Part shown: in pieces, positions 1,916 to 60,178 of the stretch
Numbering within the stretch: the first letter of the stretch is position 1
How the letters are laid out: every line of letters starts with the position of its first letter
NCBI GenBank assembly: GCA_039545275.1
Contig: BCHS01000019.1
Span: 1-64,000, forward strand
Direction of reading: 5' to 3'
DNA length: 64,000 nucleotides
From: Pseudomicrostroma phylloplanum
Lineage: Eukaryota; Basidiomycota; Exobasidiomycetes; Microstromatales
Notes under the pieces: generated by a model
Told to the model about the DNA's origin: nothing
The model's database searches: none
The model's input: only the letters and a program-made list of their open reading frames with translations
Position numbers and translations under genes: made by a program

Positions 1916-1921
1916 TATAAG
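1916..1921 (+). promoter_or_regulatory. TATA-like element for the permease
   Basis: TATAAG lies about 170 bp upstream of the permease ATG at 2090. Position and sequence fit a core promoter; there is no transcript evidence. Confidence 0.35.
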
Positions 1922-2089
1922 ATGGCGAGCCTGAAAGTGAGGGTTTACCAAAGGACGCTATCCGGAGCGAGATCCATAGCAGACACGGCAGCCTCCTTGC
2001 TTGAGCCGTGATCTTCGAGCATTCTACCCTCACTTTATCGACTCCACATTCCTTCTTCATCTCTTGCTTCGGTCGACGGCACTGTAAGC

Positions 2090-3820: not shown

Positions 3821-4582
3821 GGGACAAAGACAGAGAGAGAAGCAGTGTACGAGGACTTCTTCACTGTTGTCCCTGTCCGGTGTGTGTGTGTGTGTTTGTT
3901 CGTCTCAGTCTGCCCGCCTGCCATACCAGCAGAGCTGTACAAATTTCCAATTCACTTGTCATCAATTTCGAAGCGTCGACACACCTGGATGCCCGGCGTC
4001 TTCATCATTATCCCTTTACATCTTGCCACCTCCAAGTCTGGTGGTCAACTGCTCGAAAATCCACCTCGCCGTCGTCGTCGTCCGGCCAGCTTGTCGAGGC
4101 GCGGAGCTCAGCTCCACCTGAAGCGGAACCGGAACGGAAGTCAGGGTCAGGGCGGAGACTCTTCAAGCTGGGCTGGGCGCCAGGTATCTGGCCAGACATT
4201 GTCCGTAGCCCAGCGGCGAGCGTTACAGCAAGTGACCGCGCGATACTCTGTCGCTCTCGACGGCTGTCTGCAATCTCATGCGGGCGAGCAGCGCCTCACC
4301 GGCGAGGATTATGCACTCACACTCAGATTCACCACACTTTCACTCACGGTACACACCAGCTGAATCGATTGTTGAATGAAATGACATATACTATTTCCGA
4401 TGGCAAGAAGAGAGACGCGAGTCTGCCGTAATTATGCTGTCGTCCAGACAGGGTACTACGTTGCTGTACCGTCTGCATACGTTGCTGTCGAGGCTTATGC
4501 TGGGATCGACAGTAGAAGAGAAGTCATTGTGCGGTTGCGTTTGATTTACTTTGGCGAGAAGAGTTTATTGATGGATCGTGAG
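3821..4582. other. Convergent intergenic region
   Basis: The 3' flanks of the permease (plus) and the unrecognised gene (minus) meet here. A (TG)n run lies at 3880-3895. I see no further gene; the overlapping plus ORFs of 105-204 aa have no recognisable content. Confidence 0.6.
3880..3896. repeat. (TG)n microsatellite
   Basis: Uninterrupted TG dinucleotide run about 60 bp past the permease stop codon. Confidence 0.8.
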
Positions 4583-14990: not shown

Positions 14991-15955
14991 GCTGACTCAT
15001 GAATGCTCGATCTTCGCCTTCCGCCCCTTCGCACCATCATCAGCGCTCCGCCTCGCATCGGCCAAGCTACCGGTACCCACAGAATTCGTCACACTGTCCT
15101 CGCCGCCGCGTCTGGGCACCTCGGTCCTACACGATATTCCATCTGGCTCGGGAGTGGGCAATGCTGGAAGGGAGGTGGTATCGCAGGTGGTGTAAGGGGA
15201 GGAGAGTGCGACCTGTACCCTTGCAGGTAATGACATCTTCGACCGATTCTACCAATTGGCATCAGTCTGTATTGCACTCACTCTACTGCTTGTTTGCCGT
15301 GGCCAGTGTCAGCCGCGTGAGGCAAGGGCAAAGGGAAAGCAGCAGGAATAGCGTACGCCTCAGCGGCTGTAGTGTGACGAAGAAGTGACCACTGAACGGC
15401 TTCCTTGTTGTGCAGTGCAGCCTCCCTCGGCCTGGACGTCGTACGGCTGTGCTGCTGCTTCTGCTGCGATGCTCACACAGTCTCGGCTCCGGGCCTTGAG
15501 GCCACGGCAATGGTACACGCCTCGGCAGACGTTGTGCCTCCGCTCCGCTCTGTGCTCCGCTGCTGTTGCTTGCTTGGCTTGGCTACCCCGCGTGATTGAC
15601 ACTTATCGTCCTCCTCCCTGACTGGCAGTATCGTATCATTATCACTTCGCTCTCGCTCTCGATGTATCCAGCTAGGCGTTCACTCACACCCTCCGACTCG
15701 TGAGCTGTTACCGGGATGTGATGAGTTTCAGCGCGCCTCTGTAGCAAGACTCGGTTTCCATTGTGCCTCGTTGCGCCGCGAGCCGCCGATCCGTATCGCA
15801 GCAACTCGAAGGCTGGACTATCATACGACCTAGCTTTCTCTCTCTGAGTCCGGCCATCGCATCTGTATATACACACAAGCACCTACTTCACTCTGCTTCA
15901 TCTACTACTGGTCATCGCTCGCAGCGCATTTCCCCCTCTGCATACCCTTCCAGCC
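14991..15955. other. Intergenic region upstream of the lipase gene
   Basis: About 960 bp between two plus-strand genes. I see no protein-like ORF and no tRNA. It ends with a TATA-like element near 15866. Confidence 0.6.
15866..15871 (+). promoter_or_regulatory. TATA box candidate for the lipase gene
   Basis: TATATA lies 90 bp upstream of ATG 15956, within an otherwise GC-rich flank. Confidence 0.45.
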
Positions 15956-25354: not shown

Positions 25355-25454
25355 NNNNNNNNNNNNNNNNNNNNNNNNNNNNNNNNNNNNNNNNNNNNNN
25401 NNNNNNNNNNNNNNNNNNNNNNNNNNNNNNNNNNNNNNNNNNNNNNNNNNNNNN
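25355..25454. other. Assembly gap (100 N)
   Basis: Exactly 100 N, the conventional size for a gap of unknown length; the true distance is unknown. The gap is followed by C/T-rich sequence. Confidence 0.98.
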
Positions 25455-26461: not shown

Positions 26462-29400
26462 CTAACGATGCCTTCGTCCGAGGATAGGAGGCATGGCAGT
26501 GTTGACTGCAGCGAGCGATGCGCGGCTCAAAGCGGCGCCCTTGACTGCAATTGCCGACATGGGCTTGCCAATGACACCAGGGTGACCTCGCCTCCACTGC
26601 ATCGGTACTGCACCACCTAGACCGTTCATGAGCACGCCCGAGGCATGCAGGCTGGTAGCGGTGGTGGTAGCAGCAGCCGAGTCCACAGCGGTAGTGGTGG
26701 CCTCAGCAGCAGCAGCATCGCTGGTGCTGGCGGCATCGACGATGCCGTCATCCAGACCGACACCGGTGCCAACATCGGCAACGATTGACGTCGAGGTCGG
26801 TGTGGCAGTCGACGAGGTGCTGCTGTCGGGACCAAGGGTAAGCGTCAAGGTGGCTCCGTTGGCAGCGACCTTGGTGGTAGTGACAGTGCCCGAGGAAGCC
26901 TGCACACTGGAAGTGCCAGAAGCCTTGACAGCGGCAGAAGTGCTGGAAGCCTTGGTCGACTTGGCAGTGCTCAACTTGGTGGCCGTCGAGCTAGTGCCGT
27001 TGCCGGCGTAGACTGTCTCAGTCTTTCCATTGGCCAAGGTGCGGGTGCTGGTCACGGTGAAGACTCCACCGGTGGCGCCGGATGCAGCGCCACTGGTAGT
27101 GCCAGTGCCAGTCAGGGCATCACCGGCAGAGACGGTAGTGGTTGCTCCGTTGGCCACGGCCGTCGCCATCGTCGTCGCAGCCTGAGACTGTTGTGTAGTA
27201 GGCGCAGACGACGAAGAGGAAGAGCCGTGGAACGTGACAGTGGCACCATTCTCCAGGGTCACCGTAGTGGCAGAAGTAGTCGTGGTAGCGTCAACGGTGA
27301 CGGTGCGAGCTTCGGTCACTGTGACGGTTGAAGCGCCAGCGGCGGTACCCTGGGCGGCATTGGCTGCGTTCTTTGTAGAAGCCTCAGTGGTGGTGTCGTC
27401 ATCGTCGCTCGAGTTCTCGTCTCCAGACGCGGCGCTGTCAGAGTCGTCGGTGGTTGACTCAGAGCTGCCAGTGTTGGAAGTTACAGTAGAACCCGAGGTG
27501 CTGTCAGAATCGGAGCTGCTGTCATCCGAAGAGGAGAGGCGCTCAGTCGAGACCGAACAATCAGTGATGGGAGAGTCGGTGAGCGGAGCGCAGCCAGAAG
27601 GAACGTGAGGGTAGTAGAGCTGACGGCCATTCTTGCGTGTGACCTCGGGAGTACCGTCCTCGTTGTAGTAGGCGATCCAGGTGACTTGGCAATCGCCAGC
27701 GGAAGACGTCGAAGAAGCGCTTGCAGAGGTAGTAGCAGATCCAGTCGAAGCTGCGCCTGCGGCGTGGCCGGCAGAAGTCTTGGAGCCAGACCCAGCGCTG
27801 GTGGAGCCTGATCCGCTCTTCTTGCTTGCGTTGGACTCGGCGCTTTCATCACTCTCTCCACCGGAAGTGGCCGAAGCCTTCTTGGTGGAAGACTTCGTGG
27901 ACTTCTTGGTGGACTCGTTGCCCGATGCTCCGGCGGCGGTCTTGGTCTTGGTCTTGTTGCTCTCTGTCGAGGCCGCAGCGCCCGCGCCCTCGCCAGCAGC
28001 CAACGTCTTGCTCTTGGAAGAGGCCTTGCCAGACGCGGTTGCTGCAGTGCTCTTGTGAGTGGATGCCTTGGTTGTGGCGTCGTCACCAGCGGCGACAGAA
28101 GCACCGTTGTTGGCTGCAACCTTCTTGGTCGAAGTCGAAGCCTTGGTCGAGGCAGTCTTGGTCGACGAAGCCTTCTCGGTGGTGGCGTCGTCACCAGCGG
28201 CAACGGAACCGCCGTTGTTGGCCGCAACTGCCTTGGTCGAAGTCGAAGCCTTGGTCGAAGCCTTAGCGGAAGTCTTGGTCGAGGCAGCCTTGGAGGAGGC
28301 AGCCTTGGTCGATGTAGCCTTGGTCGAGGCAGCCTTGGTCGATGTAGCCTTGGTGGCGCTCGTCTTCTTTGTGGTAGCCTGGCCAGCATCACCAGCAGAG
28401 ATAGAGCCACCGTTGTTGCCTGCGACCTTCTTGGTCGTGGAGGAGCTGTGCGTCGATGCCTTGGTGGAAGAGGCCTCGGACGTGGCCGCAGTGGACGCGG
28501 TAGCAGAAGCATCATCGGTAGAGGATGAGGAGCCCTTGGCCGTGCTGCTCTGACCTGTGCTGATGCCAATGTTGCCTCCAGTGTTACCGGCGACGGCGGT
28601 GGTGCCAGTCTTGGATGCGGTCGTGGCCGTGATCTTGGAGCTGGTGGATGAACTCTGCACTCCGGAAGTGGTCTCGGCAGACGAAGAAGTGGCTGCAATC
28701 GATGATGAAGTTGCTGCAGTGGACGACGAGTTTGCATCTGTTGCATCATCTCCACCATCGCTGACAGTGTTGGTGGCTGCCACGCTAGAGCTCGAAGCCT
28801 TTGAAGTCGATGAGCCGATGCCGATGGACGCTCCAGAAGATGCTGCGTTGGCAGCGGCGGAGCCGCTAGCAGTGTTGGTTGCAGCTCCAGATGTGGATCC
28901 GGTGGAAGCAGCCGACGACGCAGGAGAACCGGACGAGGACGTCGTGGAAGCATCACCACCAAGACCAACGCCCGCGTGGCCGTTGCCGGCGATCGATGCG
29001 GTGGCAGTGCTCGATGAAGCAGCCGAAGATGACGATGACGAGGCCGACGAGCTGGATGCGGACGTCGACGAAGCATCGAAGTCAATACCAACGCTCGATG
29101 TCTGACCGTTGCCGGCGACCGTTGCGGTGGTAGTGCCCGACGAAGCAGCCGACGTTGACGATGACGAAGCTGACGAGCTGGACGCGGAGGTCGAGGTAGG
29201 ATCAGAGTCAATACCAACGCTCGACGTCTGGGCGTTGGCCACGACCGATGCGGTGCTCGTTGAAGCAGACTTGGACGCATCGGCTGTGCTCGACGCCGAA
29301 TCAGTGCTGGTTGCAGTGCTAGAGCCAGAGCTAGAGCTAGAGCTAGAGCTAGAGTCAGAAGCGCTTGCAGAGGCCGCAGTTCCAGACGATGATGCAGAGT

Positions 29401-32400
29401 CAGACGCGGCAGCGCTGGAGGACTGAGCCTTGCTGCTCGTGGTGGCAGAAGCAGTGGTCGTGGCATCAACGGACCCGTAGACTGTGACAGTCTCACCGCC
29501 GTCCACCGTCGCCGTGGTGACCGCAATCTTGCCTGCGTTGCTGTCATCGTCGTCACTAGAGCTGGATCCCGTTGCCGCAGTGGTGGCTGCGGCCTGAGTG
29601 GCAGCCACAGAGGAGCTCGTGGATGAGGCCTTAGTGGAGCTCGAAGATGAAGCCTTGACGGAGCTCGAAGATGAATCTTGCGTCTCCGTTGCAATGGCGG
29701 CTCCGGTGTTCTGGCCGTTGCCAACGACATTGGCGGACTTGGAACTCGTCGAAGAGGCATCGGAGTGCGAGGAAGAAGCCGTGGCATCCGATTGGGCAGA
29801 GTCGGACGATGCGGACGATGCTGAGCCAGCAGTTCTTGTAGAAGACGACGCACTTGACGAAGTGGAGTCGGCAGGAACAGCAACGGTGGAAGAAGCATCG
29901 TTGGCGGCAACAGAAGCGCTGGTGGAAGACGACTTCGAGGAAGCCGCCGAGGCAGAGGATCCCGAGGAAGCAGTAGAGGCAGCCGATCCAGAACCGGTAG
30001 TACTTGTAGAGGACGATGCGCTTGACGAGGTGGAGTCGGCGGGGACGGCGACGGCGGAAGAAGCGCCATTGGCAACAACAGAAGCGCCGGTAGTAGAAGA
30101 CGACTTCGAAGAAGTGGCCGCTGCAGACGAATCTGAAGACGTATCCGTAGCGACCGATCCAGAAGAAGCCACCGAGGCGGACGATCCTGAGGGGACTGTC
30201 GAGGCAGACGATCCCGAAGAACCGCCCGAAGCAGAAGAGCCCGAGGAGACCACCGAGGCAGAAGAGCCTGAGGAGGAGGCAGCTGAGGACGAACCTGAAG
30301 CAGTCGAGTTGGCAGAAGTGGATACGATGGACGAGGAGGAATCCACACTGATGGCAGGTGCTTGCGACGCCGTATTGGCAACGACGGATGCACTGGTGGT
30401 GGCAGATGCAGTGTTGGTGGCAGACATGGCGCTCGCGCTGTTTGAGGCAGAGGGAGCGACCGATGTACTGTCTATCGTCGTAGCCGTGCTCGAAGTTGCG
30501 GCGGCGGCTCGAGATGCTGCCGCCGACTGGACCGATGCGGCCGAAGCCATGGCAGCAGAGGCAGCAGAGTTGGCTGATGCCACCAATGAAGACAGCGAGG
30601 AAGCGATGTAATCAGCGTAGGAAGAGGCAGCAGCTGCGCGTGCGTCAGCAGAAGCGACCTGTGCAGCGGCGGACGCAGAAGCCGAGGCAGCGGCAACCGA
30701 GGCGGCCGATGCAGCTGACACCGAGGCGACCGAAGCACTGGAGGCCGCCAAGAGGGCTACATTCGCAGCCGAGTAGGATACAGCATCTGCGTAAGCAGAA
30801 GCGACCGAGGCGGCGGAAGCAGCGGAGATGGAGGCCTTGTTCGCAGACGATGACAAGGCAGCCATGACAGCAGCCTCGGATGAAACTGCTCCAGCAGCAG
30901 CAGAAGCGGCAACAGCGGCAACCGAGGAAGCAGAAACAGCGGCAGCAACGGCGTAGCTGGAGGCTGCAGCAATGGCGCCGTCAGCAGACGTCGAAGCCGC
31001 AAGAGCATTGGAAGCCATGGAGGCTGCTGCTGCTGCTGCAACGGACGATTGAGACTGGACAGCAGCAGATGCCACGGAAGCGGCGGATACAGCTACCGAC
31101 GAGGCGGAGGCGGCTGCCTGATCGGCGACCGCAGAGGCGACGGCAGCGCGTGACGCGGCCGAAGCAGCGACAGCATCAGCAGAAGACGAGGCGGCGAGGG
31201 CCTTGGAGGCAGCGGAGGCGGTTACCACGCTTGCAGAGGATTCGTACGCAGATGCGACCGAAGCATCGGAAGCGGAAGCCGAAGCCGCAAGGCCGGAGGC
31301 AACCGAGGCGACCGAGGCGGCTGAGGCAGATGCAGCGTCAGCTGAGCTGGCCGCAGACGCGGCTGCGGCAGAAGCCGAAGAAACGGCTGCAGCAGCTGAA
31401 GAGCTTGCGTCATTTGCAACCGAAGCAGCGTAGGCAGTGGCGGAAGCGACAGCGGCTGAAGCGGAAGAGAGCACTGCCGCTGCGGAAGTGGAAGCGGCAG
31501 AAGCGACGTTACTGTTGGAGTTGACAGCCGCAGCAGCCGCTGACTGGGCCGCGGAGGCGACGGATGCAGCCGAGAGTGACACGGACTGCGCGTAGTCAGA
31601 AGCAGAAGATGCAGCAGCGGCAGCAGAGACCGAAGCGGCTTGTGCGATTGACGACTGCTGTGCAACGGCATCTGAAGCAGATGAAGCAGCGGCATCGGCA
31701 ACGGCTGAGGCAGACTCGGCAGCGACAGAGGCGGAGGCGACGACGGCCGAAGCAGAAGCAGCGACAGCAGCTGTGAGAGACGATGCAGAAGCAATGGCAG
31801 CGGCGGCGTCAGCCGAAGCGGAGGCAACCAGGCTGGCTACCGAAGCAGAGGCGTCGGAAGCAGCCGAAGAGGCAGCTGCCAAGACGGAACCGGCAGAAGC
31901 GGTAGCGGCAGAAGCTTCGGCAGAGGCGCCTGCGATGACCGAGTTTGCGTAGACCGAAGCAGAAGCAGCTGCGGAAGAGGCAGAGGCAGCCACTTGCGCT
32001 GCAGAAGAGGAAGCAGCTGCAGCAGCTGCAGAGCCAAGAGAGACAGCGCCGGCAGCAGAAGCAGAAGCAGAAGCAGCTGCGGCAGATGCTGAAGCGGCGA
32101 CTGAGGCAGCATACTGAGCAGCAGACGAGCTAGCGCTGTCCTGAGAAGCAAGCGCTGAAGCAACAGCGGCTGAAGCAGACGAAGCGGCGGCAGCAGCAGA
32201 GGAAGCGACCGAGGCAGCGAAGACCGAAGCTGATGATACAGCGGCGGCAGTCTGAGCGTCAAGAGACGTCGAGACGGCATTGGCAACGGAGGCGGCAGAG
32301 GCGGCAGCAGCAGAAGCCTGAGAAGCTGCGGATATAGACACGGCCGAAGCCTCGGCGGATGCTGAGGAGACAGCGGCGTCGGCCGCGGCGGAAGCAGCAG

Positions 32401-53400: not shown

Positions 53401-56400
53401 CGGCCGAGGTAGCCGAGTTGACCGCGGCAGTGGCAGACTGTGCAGCTGCCAGGGCAGAAGCGGACGCGACCGAAGCAGCGCTGGAAGCCGAGGCTGCGAC
53501 GCTGGCGGCCGACGACGAGGCTGCAGCAGACGAAGCGGATCCCAGGGAGACGGCGGCCTGAGCAGCAGACGAAGCCGAAGCAGCGACTGATGAAGCCGAA
53601 GCCTGAGCGCTGGCAGCGGCAGCCGAAGCAACGCCGGCAGCAGAGGTAGCGGATGCCACTACTCCAGCAGCCGAGGTCGATGCGGCAGAGGCAGCCGAAG
53701 CGGCCGAGGCAGCAGCGACCGAGGCGACAGCTGAAGCGGAGGCGAGAGCACCCAGCGCGGACGACGAGGCGACGGCAGCGATCGAGGCGGCGTACGAGCT
53801 GGCAGAGACCGACGCGACGCTTGCCACGGAGACGGCCGAGGCTCGGGCAGCGTCAGCCGATACCGAAGCAGAGTTGATAGCAGCAGAGGCAGCAGAGGCA
53901 ACAGCAGCAGCAGATGCAGAGGCTACAGAGGCTGCGCTGGAAGCCGAGGCTGCGACGCTGGAAGCAGACGATGCGGCGGCAGCGGAAGATGCAGAACCCA
54001 GAGACACGGCGGCCACAGCAGCAGCCGAAGCCGAAGAGGCGACCGAGGCAGCAGACAGGGAAGCGGCATTGGCAGCAGCAGAAGCGACGCCTGCAGCCGA
54101 AGTGGCAGAAGCAAGGACAGCGGCAGCCGAAGCCGAAGCCTGGGAAGCGGCGGCCGAAGCAGATGCTCCAGCGCTGGACGCAGCAGCAGAAGCAGATGCC
54201 AATGCTCCAGCAGCAGATGCCGAGGCAACCGAGGCAACCGAAGCGGCGTAAGAGTTGGCAGAGACAGCGGCGACTGAAGCAGACGAGGCAGCGGCAGCCG
54301 AAGCAGACGAGGCAACTGCAACAGCCGAAACAGAAGCTACGCTAGCAACTGATGCGGCCGACGCGAGGGCAGCAGAAGCAGCCGAGGCAGCAGCACCCAC
54401 AGCCGAAGTAGCCGAGTTGACTGCAGCGGTGGCAGAGGCGGCAGCTGCAGCAGCAGCAGCGGATGCGACTGAAGCGGCGCTGGAAGCCAAGGCTGCGACA
54501 TTGGAAGCGGACGAGGCGGCAGCAGCAGACGAGGCAGAGCCCAGTGACACGGCAGCCAGAGCGGCAGAAGCAGCTGAGCTGGCGACCGAGGCAGCAGAGC
54601 TCTGGGCAGCGGCAGCAGATGCGGCAGCTACGCCAGCAGCAGAGGTAGCAGAGGCAACGAGACCAGCAGCCGAGCTGGAGGCCTGTGCGACAGCTGCAGA
54701 GGCAGAGGCAGAGGCCGAAGAAGCCGAGGCCGCGGCGGCAACAGCTGAAGCAGAGGCAGCTGAGACAGCTGCAGCGGCCGAGCTAGCAGCGCCGGAAATC
54801 ACCGAGGACGCGTACACGTTGGCAGAGATAGCCACGGCTGCGGCGGAGGACAGAGCGTCAGCGGCCACGCTGGAGGCCATGCTGGCAACCGAAGCGGCTG
54901 AAGACAGCAGAGCAGCAGCAGACGAGGCAGCGGCTCCAGCAGCCGAGGTAGCCGAGCCGACGGCAGCACTGGCAGAGGCAGCAGCAGAGGCGGCGGCAGC
55001 AGAAGCAACCGACGCGATGCTGGAAGCCTGAGCTGCCACACTGGCAGCAGAGCTAGAGGCAGCAGCCGACGAAGCGGATCCCAAAGACACGGCAGCCAGA
55101 GCGGCGGCAGCAGCCGAGCTAGCAACCGAGGCAGCGGAGCTCTGGGCAGCAGCAGCGGAAGCAGCAGCGACACCGGCAGCAGACGTGGCAGAGGCGACAA
55201 TGCCGGCAGCCGAGCTCGAAGCAGCACCTGCAGCGGAGGCAGCGGAAGCAGCAGCAGCAGAAGCCAAGGATGCAACAGAGCCTGCCGAGGCAGAGACGCT
55301 CGCAGCGTAGGCGGCAGCAGACGCAGACGCAGACGCTGCGGCGACAGAGGCCGAAGACAGAGCTCCAGAAGCAGACGTGGCAGCGTTGTTGGCGACCGAA
55401 GATGCATATGCGTTGGCCGACGACAAGGCAGCAGCAGCAGCCGACGACGCTGAAGAGACAGCTCCGGCAACGGCGACGGATGCGACCGAGGCGACCGAGG
55501 CAGCGTAGACGCTGGCTGAGGACTGTGCTGCGACAGCAGAGTTGGAGGCTGCGCTTGCTACCGAGGCGGCTGACGACAGCAGAGCAGCAGCGGACGAAGC
55601 AGCAACAGCAGCAGCGGAGGTGGCCGAGCCGATAGCAAGAGTGGCAGAGGCAGCGGCATTAGCGGCAGCTACTGAAGCAGAAGACGCCATGCTGGAAGCC
55701 TGAGCTGCCACACTGGCAGCAGAGCTAGAGGCAGCAGCCGACGAAGCAGATCCCAAGGACACGGCGGCCAGAGCGGCGGCAGCAGCCGAGCTAGCAACCG
55801 AGGCAGCAGAGCTCTGGGCAGCGGAAGCGGAAGCGGCAGCAACACCGGCAGCGGACGTGGCAGAAGCTACCACGCCAGCGGCAGAAGTCGAAGCGAGCGA
55901 AGCCGAAGCAGCGGCAGCAGAAGCTACGGCGGCAGCCGAAGCAGAGAGGCCAGCTGCGGACGACGAAGCTGCTGAAGCGTATGAAGCGGCGGAAGCCGAG
56001 GCAGACGAGGCAGCAGCAGCGGCGGACAGGGAGGCGACGCTGGCAGCGGACGAGGCCGAAGACAAGGCAGCAGCTGCCGAAGCTGAAGCAACGGAGTTGA
56101 CCGAGGCAATGTACGAGTTCGCAGAGGATGCGGCTCCATTGACAGCGGCTGAAGCCGATGCGAGAGCTGCGTTTGCGGCAACGGAGGCGACGGATGCAAC
56201 GGAAACGGCGTATGCGTTGGCCGAAGAAGCAACGGCTGCGGCAGAAGACGAGGCGGATGCGAGGGCAACAACGGCAGAGGCCGCGGCAGCACTGACGGCC
56301 GAAGAAGCCAGGGCCTGAGCAGCAGCGGCCGACGAAGAGGCAGCATTGGCGGACGAAGAAGCCTGATCACAGGAGCCCTTGGCCGACGACGAAGCTGCTG

Positions 56401-59400
56401 CTGCAGAAGAAGATGCGGCCGCCATAAGGCTGTTCGCCCAGGCTTGCAGGACATTGACCGAGGAAGCAGCAACGGCTGATGACGACGAGCCCAGTGAGGC
56501 TGCAGCAGCTGCAGCGGACGAAGCCGAGGCAAGGACCGACGAAGCAGAGGCGGCGGCGGCGGCAGCAGAAGAAGAGGCAGCGGCGGCAGCGGATGAAGCA
56601 GAAGCAACGACAGCAGCAGCCGAGGCGGAAGCCGCAGAGGCAGACGCAGAGGCAGAAGACGCAGAGGCCGATGCCTTGGATGAGACAGCTGCCAATGAGG
56701 CCGACACGCTCGCTGCGTACGCGGCAGCGGATGCCGATGCGGACGAGGCTACAGCTGCGGCCGACGAGACGGCGCCTGCTGCAGAGGTAGAGGCTGCCGA
56801 GGCGGCAGCAGCAGCGTAAGAGCTAGCGGAGGCCGAAGCGATCGAAGCCGAAGCCGAAGCGCCAGCCATGGAGACCGAAGCGGCGCTGAGGACAGACGAC
56901 TGGGATGCCACAGCTGCAGAAGCCGAAGCGGCAGCAGCGCCGACAGCAGACGTGGCGGATGCGATGGCAGCAGTGGCAGACGCGGCAACAGCAGCAGCAG
57001 ATGCAGAGGCTACAGAGGCTGCGCTGGAAGCCGAGGCTGCGACGCTGGAAGCAGACGACGCCGCGGCTGCTGAAGACGCTGAGCCAAGAGACACGGCGGC
57101 TTGAGCAGCGGAGGAGGCAGAAGCAGCGACCGAGGCAGCTGAAGACAATGCAGCAGCAGCAGAGGCCGAGGCGCTGGCAGCGGCAGAAGTAGCAGAAGCG
57201 ACGACGCCAGCGGCCGAGGTGGAAGCAGCTGCGGCAACACTCGAGGCAGCGACAACAGCAGCAGAAGCCGAAGCAACTACACCTGAAGCTGAAGTAGCAA
57301 TGTTGGCGGCGGAAGCCGAGACAAGCGAAGCGTACGACGAAGCAGATGCAGAAGCAACGGAAGCGGCTGCTGCAGCCGAAGACAAGGCAGAGGCGGCAGA
57401 TACCGAGGCGGCAGCGGCGACGCTAGCGGCTGACGAGGCAGCGACGGAGACCTGAGAGGCGGCCGAGTTGGAAGCCACTGAGATGACCGAGGCAGCGGAC
57501 ACCAAGGCACCGTTGGCAGCAGTCTGAGCGCTGAAGATCACCGAAGCAGCCGAGCTGGCAGCCGCAGAGGCAGCAGACGTGGCGACGGATACGACCGAAG
57601 ATGCCGACGACACTGCTGCGCTGGCTGAGAGCGTGGCAGCGGCGGCAGCAGCGGTGGCTGCAGAGACAGCCGACGAGGCAGACGATGCTACGGCAGCAGC
57701 AGAAGTCGCGGCGGCAGCGGCAGCAGACGATGCCGAGGCGATGGCTGCAGCAGCGGAGCTCGAGGCCACGGCCGAGGCAGATGATCCGAGAGTCGCAGCG
57801 GAAGCAGCAGCTGAGGATGCGGACGCGATCGCGGCTGCTGCAGAGCTTGACGCAGCTGCGGCAGAGAGCGAGGCGCTGGCAGCAGCAGAGCTGGCAGAAG
57901 CCTGAGCAGCGCTGGCCGATGCAACCACCAGGGCGGCGGCGGAAGTGGCAGAGTTAGCAGCAGCGCTGGCGGATGCTACGACACCAGCAGCAGAGGTCGA
58001 GGCGGCGTTTGCGACGGCAGAGGCAGTGGCGGCAGCAGAGGCTGCAGACACCGACACCTGGTTGGCGTACGCGATGGCAGAGGCAGAAGCGGCGGCTGCA
58101 ACAGATGCGGCAGAAGCAGAGGCAACGCTGGCTGCAGACGAAGCTGATGCGACGGCGGCGTTGGCGACCGAGGAAGCGGAAGAGAGGGCACCAGAGGCTG
58201 ACGTGGCAGCACCGGAAACAACTCCAGCTGCAGAGGCAGAAGCGGCGGATGCTACCGACGAGGCCGATGCCATGGAAACACTAGCCTTGGAAGCAGCAGC
58301 GGCAGCGACGGATGAGGCCGAGGAGATGACTGCGGCTGCCGAAGTGGAAGCAGCCAAAGCGGCGGACGAGGCCGAGTTGACTGCGGCCGTAGCAGCTGCT
58401 GTGGCGGAAGAGATGGCCGAGCTTGCACTGAGGTTGACAGCGCTCGCAGATGCAACGACGGAGGCAGCGGCCGATGCAGCAGAAGCTGACACCGATGCAG
58501 CAGACGACGAGGCAGATGCAGCAGCAGATGAACCCAGAGACACGGCAGCAGACGCAGCAGCAGCAGCCGACGAAGCGACGGAAGAGGCAGAAGCGGTAGC
58601 AGCGGCAGCGGCAGCCGAGGCCGACGCGACGGCAGCAGTAGCCGATGCTACCACCGCAGCTGCTGAGGTCGAAGCACTGTTGGCCACCGCCGAAGCGGAC
58701 GAGGCAGCAGCAGCAGCAGCCGTCGAAGCAGAAGCGGAAGCAAGGACCACGGCGGCAGAGGCGAAAGAAGCCTGCACCGAAGCGACCGAAGCTGCCGATG
58801 CGGAAGCGGCGACGGCCGCAGCCGAGGCCGAGCTGACTGCGACAGCAGCAGACGAAGTGGCGGCGGCGGCTGACGCAGCGGCGTTCTGTGCTACGAGCGA
58901 GGCCGAGGATGCTGCAGCCGAAGCGGAGGCGGCGGCGCTGCTCGCGACCGAAGCAGCCGAGGAGACAGCGCCGTTGGCTGCAGTCGAGGCCGACGAGATG
59001 ACACCGGCAGCAGAGGTGGAAGCCGCAAGAGCCACGGCGGCGGCCGAAGAGGTGGCCGCTGCGGCTGATGAGACTACCACTGCTGCAGCGCTGGATGCGG
59101 AAGCGGCGGCAGCCGAAGCCGAGGCGGCAACGAGAGCAGCCGACGACGAGGCAGATGCAGCTGCTGATGATCCCAGCGACACGGCAGCAGAAGCACTGGC
59201 CGCAGCTGCCGCGGCAACAGAGGACGCAGACGATGCGACCGAGCTGGCAGAGGCAGTGGCGGCAGCTGCAGCCGACGTGGCAGAGGATACCACCTTGGCT
59301 GCCGATGCGGCGGCGGCGGCGGCGGCTGACGAGGCAGAGTTGATGACCGAGGTAGCCGACGAGGTTGCGTAGCTGGCAGCTGAAGCTGCGCTCACGGTGG

Positions 59401-60178
59401 ACACGCTGGCTTGAGACGCAGCAGAGGCTGCCGCTGCCGAAGCCGCCGAGATAGATACGGCAGCAGAGCTGACGGCACCCGCGGCCGCACTGGACGCGGA
59501 CGCAATCACAGAGGTGGCTGAGGCGGTGGCGAGGGAAGCGTCGGCGCTGGCAGTGACTTCTGCCATGACGACGTCGGCATTGTAGATGGCGATGGCGTTG
59601 GTTCCACCACAGATCTCGGTTGCGTCTCCGTAACACGTCGTCGTACAAGCGGCTGAGTTGGGGGAGTAGGTGGGCGCGGCGGTGGAACACCAACACTGGT
59701 AACCGGCCTCGACACCGAAGTAATCGTAGCTGGTGCTGGTATATTGACAAAGATAAGCACAGGTCTCGATGGTCATCACAGACCAATAGATGTTGTACGC
59801 GGCGAAGTTGACCAAGCCCTTGTAGACGGATCCTCCTGGACTGTCTTTGTAACAACCGATGTAACCGTCGATGGACGAGGCGGTCACCGTCGTCCCCCTC
59901 GCCTCCAACGAGGAAGCATTGGAGACATTAGTGAAATCGTCGCGCTTGGCTGTGATGCGCCTCGCCTTGGATTCCTTCTTCAATTCGATGAGCTCCTTCA
60001 ACGACTCGAGGGACATGTCCGTGATATTGTGCGGCCCAGCGGCCACATTCCGGGTGATCTGGACCTGGGCGGGGGCCACACCGCGACCGAAGATGCGGTT
60101 CAAGAAGCCAGCCTGGGCAGGCTCGGCCAGAGCGGTCCCCAAGCTCAAGAGCAGGAGAGCCCGCGAGAGTCGCACCAT
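26462..60178 (-). CDS. Giant secreted WSC-domain Ala/Ser-repeat protein, 11,238 aa
   Basis: A single open frame of 33,717 bp without an intron or stop. ATG 60178 precedes a clear signal peptide (MVRLSRALLLLSLGTALAEP, cleavage near AQA|G). A hydrophilic propeptide with a dibasic AKR|DD (R79) site follows, then a WSC domain (residues about 105-200) with eight cysteines at 109, 140, 144, 162, 164, 178, 182 and 190. Residues about 205-9893 are almost only Ala and Ser with scattered Val, Thr, Gly, Tyr, Leu and Gln, in a higher-order repeat of about 159 aa marked by AVSLGS and STSAAGVVASATSAAG. The last 1,345 residues are Ser/Thr-rich, partly Lys-rich, with a three-cysteine island near 10,830-10,870. 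The C-terminus (PPILGRRHR) has no TM or GPI signal. WSC domains bind wall glycans or act in wall sensors; here export to the wall or medium is inferred. One codon contains N (33131). Confidence 0.9.
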   Translation of the reverse strand: MVRLSRALLLLSLGTALAEPAQAGFLNRIFGRGVAPAQVQITRNVAAGPHNITDMSLESLKELIELKKESKARRITAKRDDFTNVSNASSLEARGTTVTASSIDGYIGCYKDSPGGSVYKGLVNFAAYNIYWSVMTIETCAYLCQYTSTSYDYFGVEAGYQCWCSTAAPTYSPNSAACTTTCYGDATEICGGTNAIAIYNADVVMAEVTASADASLATASATSVIASASSAAAGAVSSAAVSISAASAAAASAASQASVSTVSAASAASYATSSATSVINSASSAAAAAAASAAKVVSSATSAAAAATASASSVASSASSVAAAAAASASAAVSLGSSAAASASSSAALVAASASAAAASASSAAAVVVSSAAAATSSAAAVALAASTSAAGVISSASTAANGAVSSAASVASSAAASASAAASSASLVAQNAAASAAAATSSAAVAVSSASAAAVAASASAASVASVQASFASAAVVLASASASTAAAAAASSASAVANSASTSAAAVVASATAAVASASAAAAAATASASSVASSAAAAASAAVSLGSSAAASASSSAASVSASAASAAASVVASASAVNLSASSAISSATAAATAAVNSASSAALAASTSAAAVISSASSVAAAAASKASVSMASASSVASAASASAAGVVSGAATSASGALSSASSVANAAVASASSAASVASASAASVAAAASASAIAYANQVSVSAASAAATASAVANAASTSAAGVVASASAAANSATSAAALVVASASAAQASASSAAASASLSAAAASSSAAAAIASASSAAASAATLGSSASAVASSSAAAAIASASSAAAAAATSAAAVASSASSAVSAATAAAAAATLSASAAVSSASSVVSVATSAASAAASSAASVIFSAQTAANGALVSAASVISVASNSAASQVSVAASSAASVAAAASVSAASALSSAAAAASVASASASSYASLVSASAANIATSASGVVASASAAVVAASSVAAAASTSAAGVVASATSAAASASASAAAALSSAASVAASASSAAQAAVSLGSASSAAAASSASSVAASASSAASVASASAAAVAASATAAIASATSAVGAAAASASAAVASQSSVLSAASVSMAGASASASIASASASSYAAAAASAASTSAAGAVSSAAAVASSASASAAAYAASVSASLAAVSSKASASASSASASASAASASAAAVVASASSAAAAASSSAAAAAASASSVLASASSAAAAAASLGSSSSAVAASSVNVLQAWANSLMAAASSSAAAASSSAKGSCDQASSSANAASSSAAAAQALASSAVSAAAASAVVALASASSSAAAVASSANAYAVSVASVASVAANAALASASAAVNGAASSANSYIASVNSVASASAAAALSSASSAASVASLSAAAAASSASASAASYASAASSSAAGLSASAAAVASAAAASASLASTSAAGVVASATSAAGVAAASASAAQSSAASVASSAAAAALAAVSLGSASSAAASSSAASVAAQASSMASSASVAAANAAASATLAIGSATSAAAVAASSAAALLSSAASVASAASNSAVAAQSSASVYAASVASVASVAVAGAVSSASSAAAAALSSANAYASSVANNAATSASGALSSASVAAASASASAAAYAASVSASAGSVASLASAAAASAASAAGAASSSAAGIVASATSAAGVAAASAAAAQSSAASVASSAAAAALAAVSLGSASSAAASSSAASVAAQASSIASVASAAAASAAASASAAVGSATSAAGAAASSAAALLSSAASVASMASSVAADALSSAAAVAISANVYASSVISGAASSAAAAVSAASASAVAAAASASSASASASAAVAQASSSAAGLVASATSAAGVAAASAAAAQSSAASVASSAASAALAAVSLGSASSAAAASSASNVAALASSAASVASAAAAAAAASATAAVNSATSAVGAAASAASAALASAASVASVASVSAVAVASSASAAAASSASVAAVSANSYAASVASVASASAAGALASASAAASSAGASASAAASQASASAAAVLASATSAAGVASAAANAASLSAASVASSASAAAVAAVSLGSASSAAAASSASSVAASASSAASVASASAAAVASAASAAINSASVSADAARASAVSVASVASVSASSYAASIAAVASSSALGALASASAVASVAAASAASAASAASTSAAGVVASATSAAGVASAAAASAQASASSVAASASSAAQAAVSLGSASSAAASSSAASVAASASSAASVASASALAAAQSATAAVNSATSAAGAAASSAAAALSSASSVASVAAASANSYAASASSSAAAVAAAASTSASAALASASSAASVAAASASAAASAAALSASSAASAASTSAAGVVASATSAAGAASASAVAAQASASAVANSAASAALAAVSLGSASSAAASSSAASVAASASSAASVASAAALAAAQSATAAVNSATAAAAAAASSAAASAAAAQSSAASVASVASASASSYAASVAAVAASSASGAMAAASAAASSAAASASAAVSAAASSASSAASAASTSAAGVVASATAAAGAASASAVAAQASASSVAASASSAAQAAVSLGSASSAAASSSAASVAASASSAASVASAAAVAAAQSATAAVDSATSAAAAAASSAAASVVAAQSSAASAVSVAAASASLYAASVVAAASTSASGALASASAAASVAAASASSAAAAASTSAAGIVASATSAAGAASLAAANAQASASSVASSASVAALAAVSLGSASSAAASSSAASVASSAASAASVASVAAVAAAQSATAAVNSATSAAGAALSSAASVASAASASASSYAASVVAAASTSASGALASASAVASVAAASAASAASAASTSAAGVVASATSAAGVASAAAVAAQASASSVAASASSAAQAAVSLGSASSAAASSSAASVAASASSAASVASAAAVAAAQSATAAVNSATSAAGVAASSAAAALSSASSVASAAAVSASSYAASVAAAASTSASGALASASAAVSVAAASAAAAALAASTSASGALASASSAASVASASAASAAAAASTSAAGVVASATSAAGVASASAVAAQASAASVAASASSAAQAAVSLGSASSAAASSSAASVASSASSAASVASAAAVAAAASATAAVNSATSAAAAAASSAASAQSSAAAAVSAASVSASSYAASVASAASASASAYAISVVSAASTSAVGALASASAVASVAAASAASAAADASTSAAGVVASATSAAGAASASAVAAQASAASVASSASVAAQAAVSLGSASSAAAASSASSVASSASSAASVASAAAVAAAASATAAVNSATSAAGAAASSAAAAQSSAASIASVASASASSYAASVVAAASTSASGALASASAAASVAAASASSAAAAASTSAAGVVASATSAAGAASASAVAAQASASSVASSASVAAQAAVSLGSASSAAASSSAASVAASASSAASVASASAVAAAQSATAAVNSATSAAAAAASSAAAAQSSAASVASAASASASSYAAAASSSAASVVAAASTSASGALASASAAAAIAAASASSAAVAASTSAAGVVASATSAAGAASASAAAAQASASSIASSASVAAQAAVSLGSASSAAASSSAASVASSASSVASVASAAAVAAAASATAAVNSATSAAGAAASSAAAAQSSAASAASVASASASSYAASVVAAASTSASGALASASAVASIAAASAASAAAAASTSAAGVVASATSAAGAASASAVAAQASASSVASSASAAAQAAVSLGSASSAAASSSAASVAASASSAASVASAAAVAAAASATAAVNSATSAAGAAASSAAAAQSSAASAASAASVSASSYAASVVAAASTSASGALASASSAASVAAASASSAALAASTSAAGVVASATSAAGAASASALAAQASASSVASSASVAAQAAVSLGSASSAAASSSAASVASSASSAASVASAAAVAAAASASDAVNSATSAAGAAASSAAAAQSSAASAASVASVSASSYAASVVSAASTSASGALASASAAASAAAVSASSAASVAAASAASAAAQASTSAAGVVASATSAAGAASASAVAAQASASSVASSASVAAQAAVSLGSASSAAASSSAASVASSASSAASDASAAAVAAAASATAAVNSATSAAGAAASSAAAAQSSAASVASVASASASSYVASVVAAASTSASGALVSASAAAASAASAASAASTSAAGVVASATAAAGAASASALAAQASASSVASSASAAALAAVSLGSASSAAASSSAASVASSASSAASVASDAALAAAQSATAAVNSATSAAGAAASSAAAALSSASSVASVASASASSFAASANLSAASVASAASTSASGALASASAAASVAAASAASAASAASTSAAGVVASATAAAGAASVSAVAAQASASSVAASASSAALAAVSLGSASSAAASSSAASVAASASSAASVASAAAVAAAQSATAAVNSATSAAGAAAASAAAALSSASSVAIAASTSAVGALASASSAASVAAASASSAALAASTSAAGVVASATSAAGQASLSAANAQASASSVASSASAAALAAVSLGSASSAAASSSAASVASSASSAASVASAAAQAAAASAIAVVNSATSAAGAAASSAAAAQSSASSVASAASVSMAGAQSSASAASASASSVAAEASTSAAGALASASAAASVAAASAAAAVSAASTSAAGVVASATSAVAVASAAANAASISAASVASSASSAAAAAVSLGSASSAAAASSASSVASSASSAASVASASAAAVAQSATAAINSATSAVGAASVSADSARASASSVASAASVSASSYAASVASAASTSAVGALASASAAASVAASSASSAASAASASAAGVVASATSAVGVAAAAANAASISAASVASSASSAAQAAVSLGSASSAAAASSASSVAASASSAASVASASAAAVAVSATAAIDAATSAVGAASASAVAAQSSAASVASAASTSAAGALASASAAASSAASAASAASTSAAGVVASATSAAGVASASAVSAAASAASVASSASAAAQAAVSLGSASSAAASSSAASVASSASSAASVASAAALAAAQSATAAVNSATSAAGAAASSAADAQSSAAAVISAASVSALGAQHSAAAASASASSYAASVAADASSSAAGALASASAAASVAAASAASAASVASVSASSLAASVSASAAGVASAAAVAASSASAAAVSASNSAADVVASATSAAGVASAAAVAAQASASSVAASASSAAQAAVSLGSASSAAASSSAASVAASASSAASVASASAAAAAQSATAAVASATSAAAVAASSAASAQASAASVASAASTSAAGALSSASVAAAAAASSAASAASVASTSAAGALSAASASAVAASASASSYAASVVANAATSASGALSSAASVAAAASASAVAAASAASESASQAAASASASAASYASVASASAAGVASAASVAASSASAAAVEASTSAAGVVASATSAVGAASVSAAAAIASAASVASSASSAAQAAVSLGSASSAAASASAASVIASASSVASAASASAAAVGQSATAAIASATSAVGAASASAVAAQSSAASVASSASTFAVGAQSSASEAAASAASSAASYAASVASAASTSAAGAVSAASVAAAAASVSAQAYASSVAAAAATSAAGAQASASAAASVASASAISYAAVVSQSAASVASAASQAASLASAAASEASASAAGVVASATAAAAAASSSAAAAQSSAASVASSASVAAAAAVSLGSASSAAAASSASSVAASASSAASVASASAASVAQSAETAVAAATSAVGAAASSAAAAQASASSIAEAASTSAAGAQASAASAAASAASYASSIAAAASSSASGAVSAASVSAAAASASAAAAQSAASISAASASASAAAAQSAASVSAASASASAAAYANAVALDASTSAAGALASASAAASAASASAAAAAAAVSQSALAYASVVSSSAAGIAASASAAASSASSAAVEASASAASVVASATSAAGVASAAAAAASASAVSVAASASSAAAAAVSLGSASSAAASSSAASVAASASSAASVASASAAAAAQSATEAVASATSAAGVASASAAAAQSSAASIVNAASASAAGALSSASSAAAVAASSAASYASSVAADASSSAAAALSSASASAASASASAVAYANSVALGASTSAAGALASASAAVSVALASASNAASAASASALSYASVASTSAAGVASSASVAASSASVAAAQASASAAEAVASATSAVGVASAAAAAASASALSVASSASSAAAAAVSLGSASSAAASSSAASAAASAASVASEASVSAASVAASAATAVAAATSAVGAAASSAAAAQSSASSVASVASLSAISVQSSASAAAASYAASVASAASTSAAGALSSASVAAAAASTSAVGALASASAAAAAASASAVSYAAAASSSAADAASSASAAAVAAATSADAVVASATSAAGAASAAASAASVSAASVAASASSAAAAAVSLGSASSAAAASSASSVAASASNAASAASASAASVAQSAATAVAAATSAVGAASSLADAAQSSAASVASAASTSVAGVLASASAAAENAATSAAGALASASAAASAASASALSYASVVSSSAAGVAASAAAVAASASAAADAASNSAAGVVASATSAAGVASAAAAAASISAASVAASAASAASQAVSLGSASSAAASASAASVAASASSAASVASASAASVAESAATAVAAATSAVGAAASSAADAQASAASVANAASTSAAGALSSASAVAASAAANAASVALVASTSAAGAMSAASASAALYASSVAAAAATSAAGALASASAAAAAASQSALDAAAVASASAASQASVASVSAAAAVSSASAAAAAASDAAALASTSAAGVVASATSAVASASAAADSALSSAASVSASAASAALAAVSLGSASSAAASSSAASVAASAASVASEASASAASVAQSAATAVAAATSAVGAAASSAAAAETSASSVAAAASTSAAAAVSSASVVAAAAASSAASVASAASTSAAGVQSLASEAAAAASASALSYASSVAAGASTSAAGALASASAAASAASASATSYAAMVSASAAQAAANASSLASDASTSAAAVVASATSAAGSASLYAASASASAASVAASAASVASDAVSLGSSAAAAASSSAASVAASASSAASVAAAYAASVALSATQAVDSATAAAAAAVSSASAATASAASVASAAAISAASVASAASESAASVALAASTSAAGALSAASVAADAASASGASAISVASASAVSYAASAASSASAAASLASAAALAASTSADGVVASATAVAASASQYAAEASASAASVAASAASAASAAVSLGTAAAAAASSSAASASASASSAAASASAYAASVALSASDAVANATSAVGAAAASASAASASADSVASAASLSAVNALSSASQVAQSAAAAANSALVSEASYASSISVSASSFAAAAASSASAVASSASAAASQASTSAAGVVASATSAAASASSYAAQVSASAAAAASSAASEASAAVSLGSAAAFSASVSAASVLASASSAAASADAYAASVSNSVASAVANATSAAGAAASSAASVASEASSEAAAAIASGASVASAASQSGASVASVVSASVASYAAAAASSADGVASLASVSAAAAITSAQAAAASASLSAAAATASAGDVASSASVAAASAVASQSAIAYAASTSAAAVANAASLYAAAVSSSAASVASSAAAAASAAISLGTEAAASASSSAASAVASASSAAASAASAASSEALAASTSAAGVISSATAAAAAAAASASSASVSAASAASAAGVSAAAVAASVSSEAAANVASGASVASAAQASASSAASVASLAAQSAGSSASAYASAAAASAASYASVAATSAQGAASSASAYASSVSAAASAAAEAAIASQSSVAASAQVSAASVASSLADYAASVSASAVSAAAAASSAAEAAVSLGSSAAAAASTSAAAVQAAASAAAASASSYASSAAAAASSSAAVAASSAAAVASSVSESASSAAASASQYAASAIASGDSVAAAAQSSADAAVASGAAVGSAASASAAAAVASQASVVSSASAVASAATAAAASVALAASTSAAGVVSAAAASASSAIAEQASLASVASASAQAEANSASLSAAAVSSSASLVAASAASEASAAVSLGSSAASAASVSAASVASSAAAVASAALDQASAVAASASSSAAAASTSAAAAIASASASAAAASSSAVAQASVMSASAASVASIASASADAAVANAAALVYDASTSASAAVASAASYAASVAASAQSAAASEAAVASAAATSAAGVVASASDFAASASASAASVASSAAAAASAATVSGASAASVASVSAASVASSASEAAASASAQAAAAAVSAQSAASVASESAVAALQSASQVVDSANASAASVAASASSYAAAAASSGAAAALAASTSAAGYTAAVAASASQYAASVAASASVAAASASAAADAAVLSNAAIASSASVSAAGVASSAADYAASVAASASAAASSASAAAAAAVSSDSDYAASASSSAAAVASSASVAAASASDYAASVGSSASAAASAASVSANAALASASAAAGEAATSAALVAASASSYAAAAAASGASVAAAASTSADAYTAAVAASASAYAAAAASSAAAVASSASEQALEASNSADAVSLSAASVASAALASQAAVVSAASTSAAAVVASAADYASSAAASATSAAASAAAAASAAVVSDAAVASAASISAASVASSASAAASSASAYAASVADAASSSAAAAVSSASASAASATSAAGVAQASASAEAAAAQASASSEAAAASSSAVAAASSAAAALSIAIESDAAVQASAASAASAATAAAASIVLAASTSAQAAVSSAAAVASQAAASASDVAASASQAAQAAVVSQAAVASSAADYASSVVAAASSDASKAAQAASAAVSSDSAVAASASTAAAAAAASASSVAVSASQYAASVANAASASASDALASASSVGSDASSSAAAAASSASALVASASAGAASAASQAVASASSVAAAAADAASASAAAAAASGASLASVASTSAAGYTAAAASSASAYAASAAASASDAAASASAAAAAAVVSNAAIASSASVSAAGVASSAADYAASXAASASAAASSASAAAAAAVSSDSDYAASASSSAAAVASSASVAAASASGYAASIGSSASSAASVASASADAALASASAAADQAATSAASVAASASSYAAAAAASGASAALAASTSAAAYTAAAASSASAYAAQASASAAAAASSAAASVSDLLDSQSSVAAAALTSAAGVASSASEYAQSVAASASSAASIAASEASAAQALGTAAASAASVSAASVQSQASAAAASASLYAQSASVSASSVAAAASAAADAAVSSASAEASAVSISAASQASAAAASAASVANAVSTSLDAQTAAAVSSASVFAASVASSAAAAASSASAAVASALASQDSASSSAAQYAASVAASASAAAASASASAAGAVSLGSAAAAAASSSAAQVAASASSAAASASVYANSVIAGASAEASAATASAGSVLAAASSAASDASASVASLVASASADAAAAIASASSLTAAVAASASAVVASASVAAESASAVADAAASSASDAVAQQSSIAQAASVSAAAAASSASDYAQSVSLSAASVASAAQSAAAAAVNSNSNVASAASTSAAAVLSSASAAVASATAYAASVANDASSSAAAAVSSASAAAASAASSADAASASAASVASVASGLAASASASDASVASAYESSASVVTASAASKALAASSSADAVAASAASRAAVASAVADQAAASASSVAVSAASVASAAVQSQSSVAAAAAASMASNALAASTSADGAIAAASSYAVAAAVSASSVAAVAASAAAGAVSSEAAVMAALSSSANKASISAASAASVASAYADAVSYSAANVALLAASSASVASVSAASAASVAAASASASAAAQVASADARAAAASSYADYIASSLSSLVASANSAASAAMASAASVQSAAASRAAAATSSTATTIDSTSVAPSASNSASAMSATNTASATTSASVVANTASQAPAISVDSSSSIVSTSANSTASGSSSAASSSGSSASVVSSGSSASGGSSGSSASTVPSGSSASVASSGSVATDTSSDSSAAATSSKSSSTTGASVVANGASSAVAVPADSTSSSASSSTSTTGSGSAASTASSGSSASAASSKSSSTSASVAANDASSTVAVPADSTSSSASSSTRTAGSASSASSDSAQSDATASSSHSDASSTSSKSANVVGNGQNTGAAIATETQDSSSSSVKASSSSSTKASSTSSSVAATQAAATTAATGSSSSDDDDSNAGKIAVTTATVDGGETVTVYGSVDATTTASATTSSKAQSSSAAASDSASSSGTAASASASDSSSSSSSSSGSSTATSTDSASSTADASKSASTSTASVVANAQTSSVGIDSDPTSTSASSSSASSSSTSAASSGTTTATVAGNGQTSSVGIDFDASSTSASSSSASSSSSSAASSSTATASIAGNGHAGVGLGGDASTTSSSGSPASSAASTGSTSGAATNTASGSAAANAASSGASIGIGSSTSKASSSSVAATNTVSDGGDDATDANSSSTAATSSSIAATSSSAETTSGVQSSSTSSKITATTASKTGTTAVAGNTGGNIGISTGQSSTAKGSSSSTDDASATASTAATSEASSTKASTHSSSTTKKVAGNNGGSISAGDAGQATTKKTSATKATSTKAASTKATSTKAASSKAASTKTSAKASTKASTSTKAVAANNGGSVAAGDDATTEKASSTKTASTKASTSTKKVAANNGASVAAGDDATTKASTHKSTAATASGKASSKSKTLAAGEGAGAAASTESNKTKTKTAAGASGNESTKKSTKSSTKKASATSGGESDESAESNASKKSGSGSTSAGSGSKTSAGHAAGAASTGSATTSASASSTSSAGDCQVTWIAYYNEDGTPEVTRKNGRQLYYPHVPSGCAPLTDSPITDCSVSTERLSSSDDSSSDSDSTSGSTVTSNTGSSESTTDDSDSAASGDENSSDDDDTTTEASTKNAANAAQGTAAGASTVTVTEARTVTVDATTTTSATTVTLENGATVTFHGSSSSSSAPTTQQSQAATTMATAVANGATTTVSAGDALTGTGTTSGAASGATGGVFTVTSTRTLANGKTETVYAGNGTSSTATKLSTAKSTKASSTSAAVKASGTSSVQASSGTVTTTKVAANGATLTLTLGPDSSTSSTATPTSTSIVADVGTGVGLDDGIVDAASTSDAAAAEATTTAVDSAAATTTATSLHASGVLMNGLGGAVPMQWRRGHPGVIGKPMSAIAVKGAALSRASLAAVNTAMPPILGRRHR
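27541..27700 (-). other. Three-cysteine island in the tail
   Basis: The only complex segment in the tail: GDCQVTWIAYYNEDGTPEVT, then KNGRQLYYPHVPSGCAPLTD and SPITDCSV. It has three Cys (first at residue 10,830), Trp and several Tyr. It may be a small folded module or, with one unpaired Cys, a crosslinking site. I do not recognise the family. Confidence 0.6.
28290..28355 (-). repeat. Tandem 18-bp/36-bp coding minisatellite
   Basis: Plus-strand units of GCCTTGGTCGA(G/T)G(C/T)AGC repeat nearly perfectly and encode alternating KA(A/T)ST units on the minus strand. Confidence 0.7.
29325..29354 (-). repeat. AGAGCT hexamer repeat encoding Ser
   Basis: Perfect tandem AGAGCT/AGCTCT units code a pure Ser run in the tail. 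Confidence 0.75.
32986..33211 (-). repeat. 226-bp near-perfect duplicate, copy 1
   Basis: Identical base for base to 34822-35047 except for one N at 33131; the offset is 1,836 bp (612 codons, in frame). It lies within the Ala/Ser region. Confidence 0.9.
34822..35047 (-). repeat. 226-bp near-perfect duplicate, copy 2
   Basis: Partner of 32986-33211. Sequence outside both copies diverges at once, so the identity block is sharply bounded. Confidence 0.9.
59579..59866 (-). other. WSC domain
   Basis: Residues 105-200. It starts GYIGCYKDSPGG, passes MTIETCAYLC and YQCWC, and ends TCYGDATEICGGTNAIAIY. The eight-cysteine spacing and the terminal C-GG-x-N-x-(I/L)-x-(I/V)-Y match the WSC family (putative carbohydrate binding). 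Confidence 0.93.
60107..60178 (-). other. Signal peptide of the giant protein
   Basis: Residues 1-24: an n-region with two Arg, a Leu-rich core and an A-x-A cleavage pattern before Gly24-Phe25. The following 80 residues are a charged segment with RR (73-74) and KR (78-79), possible Kex2 processing sites. Confidence 0.85.

Follow-up and report, generated by a model that had tools for sequence, protein, structure and literature searches.

What kind of protein could be encoded by a fungal reading frame that runs uninterrupted for more than 33 kb, and is there an ordered structure along its length? The window analyzed here is the first 64,000 nucleotides of contig 19 (BCHS01000019.1, 400,848 bases) of the Pseudomicrostroma phylloplanum assembly GCA_039545275.1 (17,078,789 bases in 20 contigs), and six-frame translation of this window revealed on the minus strand a single open reading frame (ORF) of 11,238 codons plus stop (26462..60178). 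Most of the predicted product is an Ala/Ser-rich array in which the residue pattern repeats with the period of an alpha-helix. We give about an even chance to the reading that this giant is a secreted, wall-bound alpha-fibrous structural protein, which would make it the fungal counterpart in function of the coiled-coil silks.

The open reading frame and its coding status

The ORF begins with an ATG at 60178 and its stop codon ends at 26462, with no internal stops and no X residues in the translation, and the predicted product has a mass of 952 kDa and an isoelectric point of 4.1. An uninterrupted frame of 33,717 bp, as the original prediction had claimed, was therefore recovered in full. Upstream of the ATG the same frame is open for 15 codons only. 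A single N at 33131 lies inside the ORF and leaves the residue unchanged, and a 100-N assembly gap (25355–25454) lies outside it, approximately 1 kb beyond the stop codon.

The array (residues 206–9780, 9,575 residues) consists of 49% Ala and 29% Ser. Pro is absent from it, and indeed from residues 174–9908, yet 2,593 of the Ser codons are TCN codons, one transition from Pro. The earlier figure of about 9,700 Ala/Ser residues stood as far as the existence of the array is concerned, while the redrawn bounds give the size above and leave approximately 1,450 residues for a Ser/Thr/Ala/Gly/Lys-rich tail and C-terminus. No in-frame stop was observed in the 9,575 array codons compared with 56.6 expected from codon-position base frequencies, and the other two forward frames over the same region contained 60 and 122 stops. 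Pairs of repeat copies (the 36 top pairs by DNA identity) gave a ratio of nonsynonymous to synonymous substitution (omega) of 0.04–0.14 at synonymous divergences (dS) of 0.62–1.57. By these codon-level measures the array is coding and under selection, and the stop count and omega bear out the earlier statement that the frame is no compositional accident.

An assembly or annotation artefact, in which the ORF would not correspond to one protein, might be suspected from the repetitive locus, the N inside the frame and the nearby gap. Against this stand 11,238 codons without a stop, the low omega and a helical phase that is kept across the array (see below), and we give such an artefact almost no weight. 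The gene is predicted to be intronless solely from its open frame. Splice-like combinations numbered 7 in the array, compared with 13.3 (standard deviation 3.6) in synonymous permutations and 8.7 (standard deviation 2.8) in codon shuffles; as evidence of intronlessness this depletion was judged weak.

Helical period of the Ala/Ser array

The Ala/Ser pattern of the array (30839..59563, minus strand) was found to have a period of 3.612 residues (3.6121 from residue phase). A peak at 3.60–3.63 residues was the strongest in 16 of 19 successive 500-residue segments covering residues 201–9700, the other three having their top peak at 2.24–2.25, which is an alias of 3.60–3.63, and the 3.6-residue peak was absent in the tail. 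A beta-sheet or silk-II structure was rejected: the pattern shows no period of 2 residues, and the peak at 2.24 results from aliasing of the second harmonic of 3.61. When power was calculated in 72-residue segments it reached 4.95 at 3.6121, compared with 1.59 at 3.5, the heptad period of aculeate silks, and 3.87 at 3.6667, the period of the perilipin 11-mer repeat. Phase steps between adjacent 72-residue segments were below 60 degrees in 119 of 131 cases, between 60 and 120 degrees in 11 and larger in one.

Local phase was set from Ala and Ser alone and other residue classes were then tested against it, giving a power of 71.5 for Tyr, 85.2 for Thr and 65.1 for the apolar class VILMFYW; five shuffled arrays gave a power of no more than 3.8 in any class compared with 45–383 for the real array. 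Both Ser codon families carry the helical period, and because the AGY serines obey a phase set without them, from Ala and TCN codons only (power 80.6), the pattern is made at the protein level. A DNA-level origin of the period was not favoured, the power of the Ala third base being at most 7.8 compared with 357.7 for Ala itself.

The period places a seam along one face of the helix that contains 83%–92% Ala/Gly and at most 1.3% Ser, its centre being 87% Ala, 5% Gly and 0.3% Ser. Val, Leu, Ile, Tyr and other apolar residues flank this seam and Thr, Asn, Gln and Asp are found on the opposite side. Val, Ile and Leu together account for 6% of residues at the seam centre and for as much as 23% along its edges, and since the apolar residues are rarer at the centre the seam is more suggestive of tight helix–helix contact than of insertion into lipid. 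Positions that recur every 3.61 residues form a stripe that follows the axis of an ordinary alpha-helix without winding around it, and bundles formed along it would therefore be expected to be straight, unlike heptad coiled coils. An alpha-helical conformation of the Ala/Ser part is thus strongly supported by the 3.612 period, the nearly Ser-free seam, the absence of Pro and the whole-turn spacing of a motif described below. Judged on its sequence, the array is maintained as an alpha-helix in phase, its Ala/Gly seam continuous, and straight rather than supercoiled.

The same features bear on a different use for such a helix, namely that it is weakly amphipathic and adsorbs lengthwise to a lipid, air–water or hydrophobic surface as a coat. 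It is very long, repetitive and weakly hydrophobic with a stripe straight along its axis, and there is a precedent in perilipin 4, a lipid-droplet protein with a giant amphipathic helix of 968 residues (Table 1, PMC5889406). The Ala/Gly centre of the seam, with larger apolar residues concentrated at its edges, points instead to contact between helices, and the array contains 9 Lys and Arg in 9,575 residues. Perilipin 4 is described as having 33-residue repeats without indels, a 3-11 helix and a charged polar face, in all of which it is unlike the giant. We consider a surface coat to be quite unlikely.

A recurring motif spaced by whole helical turns

A conserved [ST]LG[ST] motif is present in 42 copies between residues 333 and 9379 (32030..59182, minus strand), 38 of them exact VSLGS copies which use varied synonymous codons. 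Recurrence is mostly every 140–278 residues, equivalent to 21–42 nm of helix. If a fortuitous match within the signal peptide is counted there are 42 spacings, from which two above 300 residues were left out (322, from the fortuitous match, and 1,314). None of the 40 remaining spacings departs from an integral number of turns by more than 0.25 turn (30 of them by no more than 0.15), and their mean deviation of 0.090 compares with a minimum of 0.161 in 20,000 nulls. A search of periods from 2.05 to 12 using the spacings alone returned 3.6120 as the best, compared with 3.6121 from residue phase. For the 23 distinct VSLGS spacings the mean cosine was 0.754 at 3.6121, where the null maximum was 0.479, and 0.755 at their best period, where nulls allowed to choose their own period reached 0.577.

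Ser is found at positions +4, +6 and +7 after the Leu-Gly, as at the start of a helix, and seam positions +5 to +9 after the motif are 73% polar, so that the seam is interrupted there. By the helix-capping rule Gly is read as ending a helix and Ser as starting one, and each motif may accordingly end one helix at its Gly and begin the next with a Ser cap. AlphaFold2 predicted helix with breaks at four of the four motifs modelled, with low to moderate confidence; these are single-chain models and oligomers are beyond their reach.

A number of observations weigh against this reading of the motif and against the silk-like protein built on it. The motif Gly sits in the seam centre. Measured with 25-residue flanks, the helical phase jumps by 0–2 degrees across the motif, the result expected of an unbroken helix (with flanks of 54–72 residues the jump is 25–33 degrees). 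The mean predicted local distance difference test (pLDDT) scores of the AlphaFold2 models were low (48.7 and 67.7), and in the model with the lower score the helix is broken twice more, at motif-free sites. The 1,314-residue stretch holds no motif at all, the motif was picked after the sequence had been seen and, because the repeats share descent, neither spacings nor indels are independent. Lastly, among 67 deduplicated indels between copies, 18 were of one residue and 21 had other lengths.

The remaining 28 indels were of 4, 7, 11, 15 or 18 residues, with 4, 7 and 11 favoured and none of 9, and in a control the aligner returned the true length for 170 of 170 planted deletions. An earlier count on the 36 closer pairs had looked cleaner. 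Given the one-residue and other indels, indel lengths support selection on phase only in part, and these lengths could also be favoured by slippage where the sequence was periodic to begin with.

If the small phase jump and the position of the Gly are taken at face value, the array would be one straight alpha-helix approximately 1.44 micrometres long, bundled in parallel and in register; the LGS sites would be contact notches or mild kinks, and the whole would act as a wall-tethered stalk or fibre. The steadiness of the phase between segments is in keeping with this, and the uneven motif spacings would align only in parallel register. The AlphaFold2 breaks at every motif modelled, the polar interruption of the seam just after it and the resemblance of Leu-Gly followed by Ser to a helix end and start argue against it, and we hold an unbroken rod to be unlikely. 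The single helix of about 1.45 micrometres that was first suggested is accordingly best taken as an upper bound; its alpha-helical nature stood, and its continuity was not upheld by the models or the seam, though the phase does cross the motif unbroken. It is likewise doubtful that register kept over approximately 2,650 turns by selection on phase (from the whole-turn motif spacing and, partly, the indels), together with a micrometre-long untwisted Ala-seam rod, represents an unrecognised class of fungal cell-surface fibre.

Several features vary along the array. From its first to its ninth thousand residues (206–9205), the frequency per 1,000 climbs from 2 to 37 for acidic residues and from 5 to 22 for Tyr. 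An atypical stretch at residues ~1240–1280 (56339–56461) contains the only Trp and the only Cys of the array; this Cys (residue 1270) could link parallel chains. Residues 8310–8537 and 8922–9149 are copies 612 residues apart with 85% amino-acid identity and a dS of 0.62, which as the lowest value among the 36 pairs probably marks the youngest duplication of that set.

The terminal regions and possible attachment to the wall

The protein begins with a signal-peptide-like stretch (residues 1–23, 60110..60178, minus strand, as are all features of the protein), judged by eye from the translation; the proper signal peptide of the original prediction is supported to that extent. Lys-Arg at residues 78–79 (59942..59947), also noted by eye, is what we take to be a possible Kex2-type cleavage site. 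A profile search identified a WSC domain (PF01822) at residues 106–192 (59603..59863), which scored 49.8 bits against a cut-off of 27.8 and covered profile positions 1–82 of 82. Its eight Cys residues (109, 140, 144, 162, 164, 178, 182 and 190) confirm the eight-Cys WSC domain claimed near the start and agree with the eight conserved cysteines given as a rule for WSC domains in a report on WSC-containing AA5 enzymes, in which those enzymes are stated to bind chitin and laminarin (PMC13094651). Its solved relatives in the PDB were Kremen 1 (E 4.3e-9) and 7pz2 (E 2.2e-4).

Beyond the array are a Ser/Thr/Gly/Lys-rich tail with degenerate VVANG-type motifs (residues 9841–10829, 27692..30658), for which the profile search found no Pfam match, a small three-Cys module (residues 10830–10874, 27557..27691) and a C-terminal Thr/Ser/Ala-rich region (residues 10875–11238, 26465..27556). 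No transmembrane or GPI (glycosylphosphatidylinositol)-like C-terminus was seen by hydropathy or by eye. Past residue 9800 the highest 19-residue hydropathy was 1.57, at the end of the array; the frames that follow the stop were inspected by eye alone, and a distant 3' exon might exist.

Tethering to the wall through the WSC domain is plausible from the domain content. Fungal Wsc-type stress sensors share with the giant a WSC domain and a Ser-rich region, and they have a transmembrane region, which was not seen in the giant. A Ser-rich spacer or spring that is O-mannosylated, extended and has no fixed fold, like that of those sensors, would account for the WSC domain and the abundant Ser, and the Ser/Thr-rich region of Wsc sensors has been described as a nanospring (PMC9148135). 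Such a spacer would not be expected to show a helical phase, a face from which Ser is nearly excluded, absence of Pro or whole-turn motif spacing, and with no transmembrane segment seen in the giant we judge it very unlikely.

Comparison with known fibrous and helical proteins

The likeness to aculeate coiled-coil silks is one of design, and a sequence search confined to PDB entries gave no match to them. Honeybee silk is reported to have Ala in helix contact positions (PMC12284834), and hornet silks are described as having an Ala-rich helical region in the middle and ends rich in Ser (PMC6403662); the giant array is also an Ala-rich helix with Ala in contact positions. As those reports describe them, the aculeate silks have a central region of ~210 residues with heptads, whereas in the giant the array is 9,575 residues long, follows a period of 3.612 and contains LGS motifs, and a WSC domain precedes it.

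The best structural match of the AlphaFold2 model was Maxi (PDB 4ke2), the flounder hyperactive type I antifreeze protein, a helical hairpin which like the array is Ala-rich and long. A structure search with a 480-residue model gave 11 matches with a lowest E of 0.023 and none at E <= 0.001; for a 200-residue model the VIA-align comparison was limited to Foldseek's two chains. Maxi is described with an 11-residue Thr repeat, ~3.7 residues per turn and interior waters (PMC5304152). The array has no Thr at every eleventh position, its Thr autocorrelation exceeding 0.05 only at 7, 10, 29, 72 and 79 and its period being 3.612, and its sequence matched no PDB sequence, Maxi included. We regard an ice-binding protein of the Maxi type as highly improbable. 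With the silk, Maxi and perilipin periodicities all tested and found to differ, we do not claim membership in any of these families.

Among smut proteins, Rsp3 of Ustilago maydis is described as secreted and repetitive, without a GPI anchor, decorating hyphae and of repeat-dependent length (PMC5923269). The giant is likewise predicted to be secreted, is repetitive and lacks a GPI-like end. It differs from Rsp3, whose gene alleles are of 1.8–2.6 kbp, which has Gln/Pro- and Cys-rich regions and for which no predicted domains are given.

Relatives and neighbouring genes

When a 400-residue piece of the array was searched against the genome all 33 matches lay in the giant ORF (104 of 1,167 first-look candidates scored), as did all 35 genomic occurrences of the AAVSLGS pattern written with TCN serines. 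Searches for paralogues of the last 400 residues and of one 500-residue tail stretch also matched the giant ORF only. In a protein set that seems poor in fungi, the N-terminus had no match at E <= 0.001 among 1,360 giant-length candidates and no match among 2,523 candidates of 220–700 residues, and a 200-residue array piece had none among the 459 scored giant-length candidates sharing most words. As ordinary fungal WSC proteins were not found either, fungi were judged scarce in this set, and these searches say little on fungal relatives. No description of such a protein was found in searches limited to open papers.

Two other WSC proteins of the genome, on contigs 9 and 1, have Ser/Thr/Lys-rich tails by eye. 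The one at contig 9:701000–705500 combines DUF1996 with two WSC stretches, and VVANG-type motifs in its tail resemble those of the giant. The giant thus resembles an ordinary wall protein of the WSC plus Ser/Thr/Lys kind, with a helical array built into it. A cluster of WSC-domain frames lies at contig 11:128000–137999, where one frame has six WSC stretches. Within the window, profile searches assigned one neighbouring plus-strand frame to an amino acid permease (2090–3820) and placed a class 3 lipase domain in the product of another (15848–20371).

Proposed structure and significance

For the silk-like protein that we favour, the hornet-silk plan and honeybee Ala contacts lead us to propose a silk-like coat or stalk, its function being drawn by analogy. 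The straight helices would pack laterally through their Ala seams, leaving a polar, Ser-rich exterior, and form untwisted bundles. Within a single chain they would probably fold back on one another as antiparallel pleats, and links to neighbouring molecules are possible. The WSC domain and the Ser/Thr/Lys tail would hold the molecule in the polysaccharide wall, and with this anchor the array may form a fibrous coat or stalk.

The pitch of the alpha-helix can be read here from gene anatomy alone, as the spacings of one motif and the residue pattern both give 3.612. For work on protein materials, the array is of interest as a natural design in which Ala-seam helices could be bundled straight and without twist. 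Insects are known to make alpha-fibrous silk-like proteins and, if the proposed reading is true, a fungal one of approximately 1 MDa on a WSC wall scaffold would be a new means of constructing the surface of a fungus.
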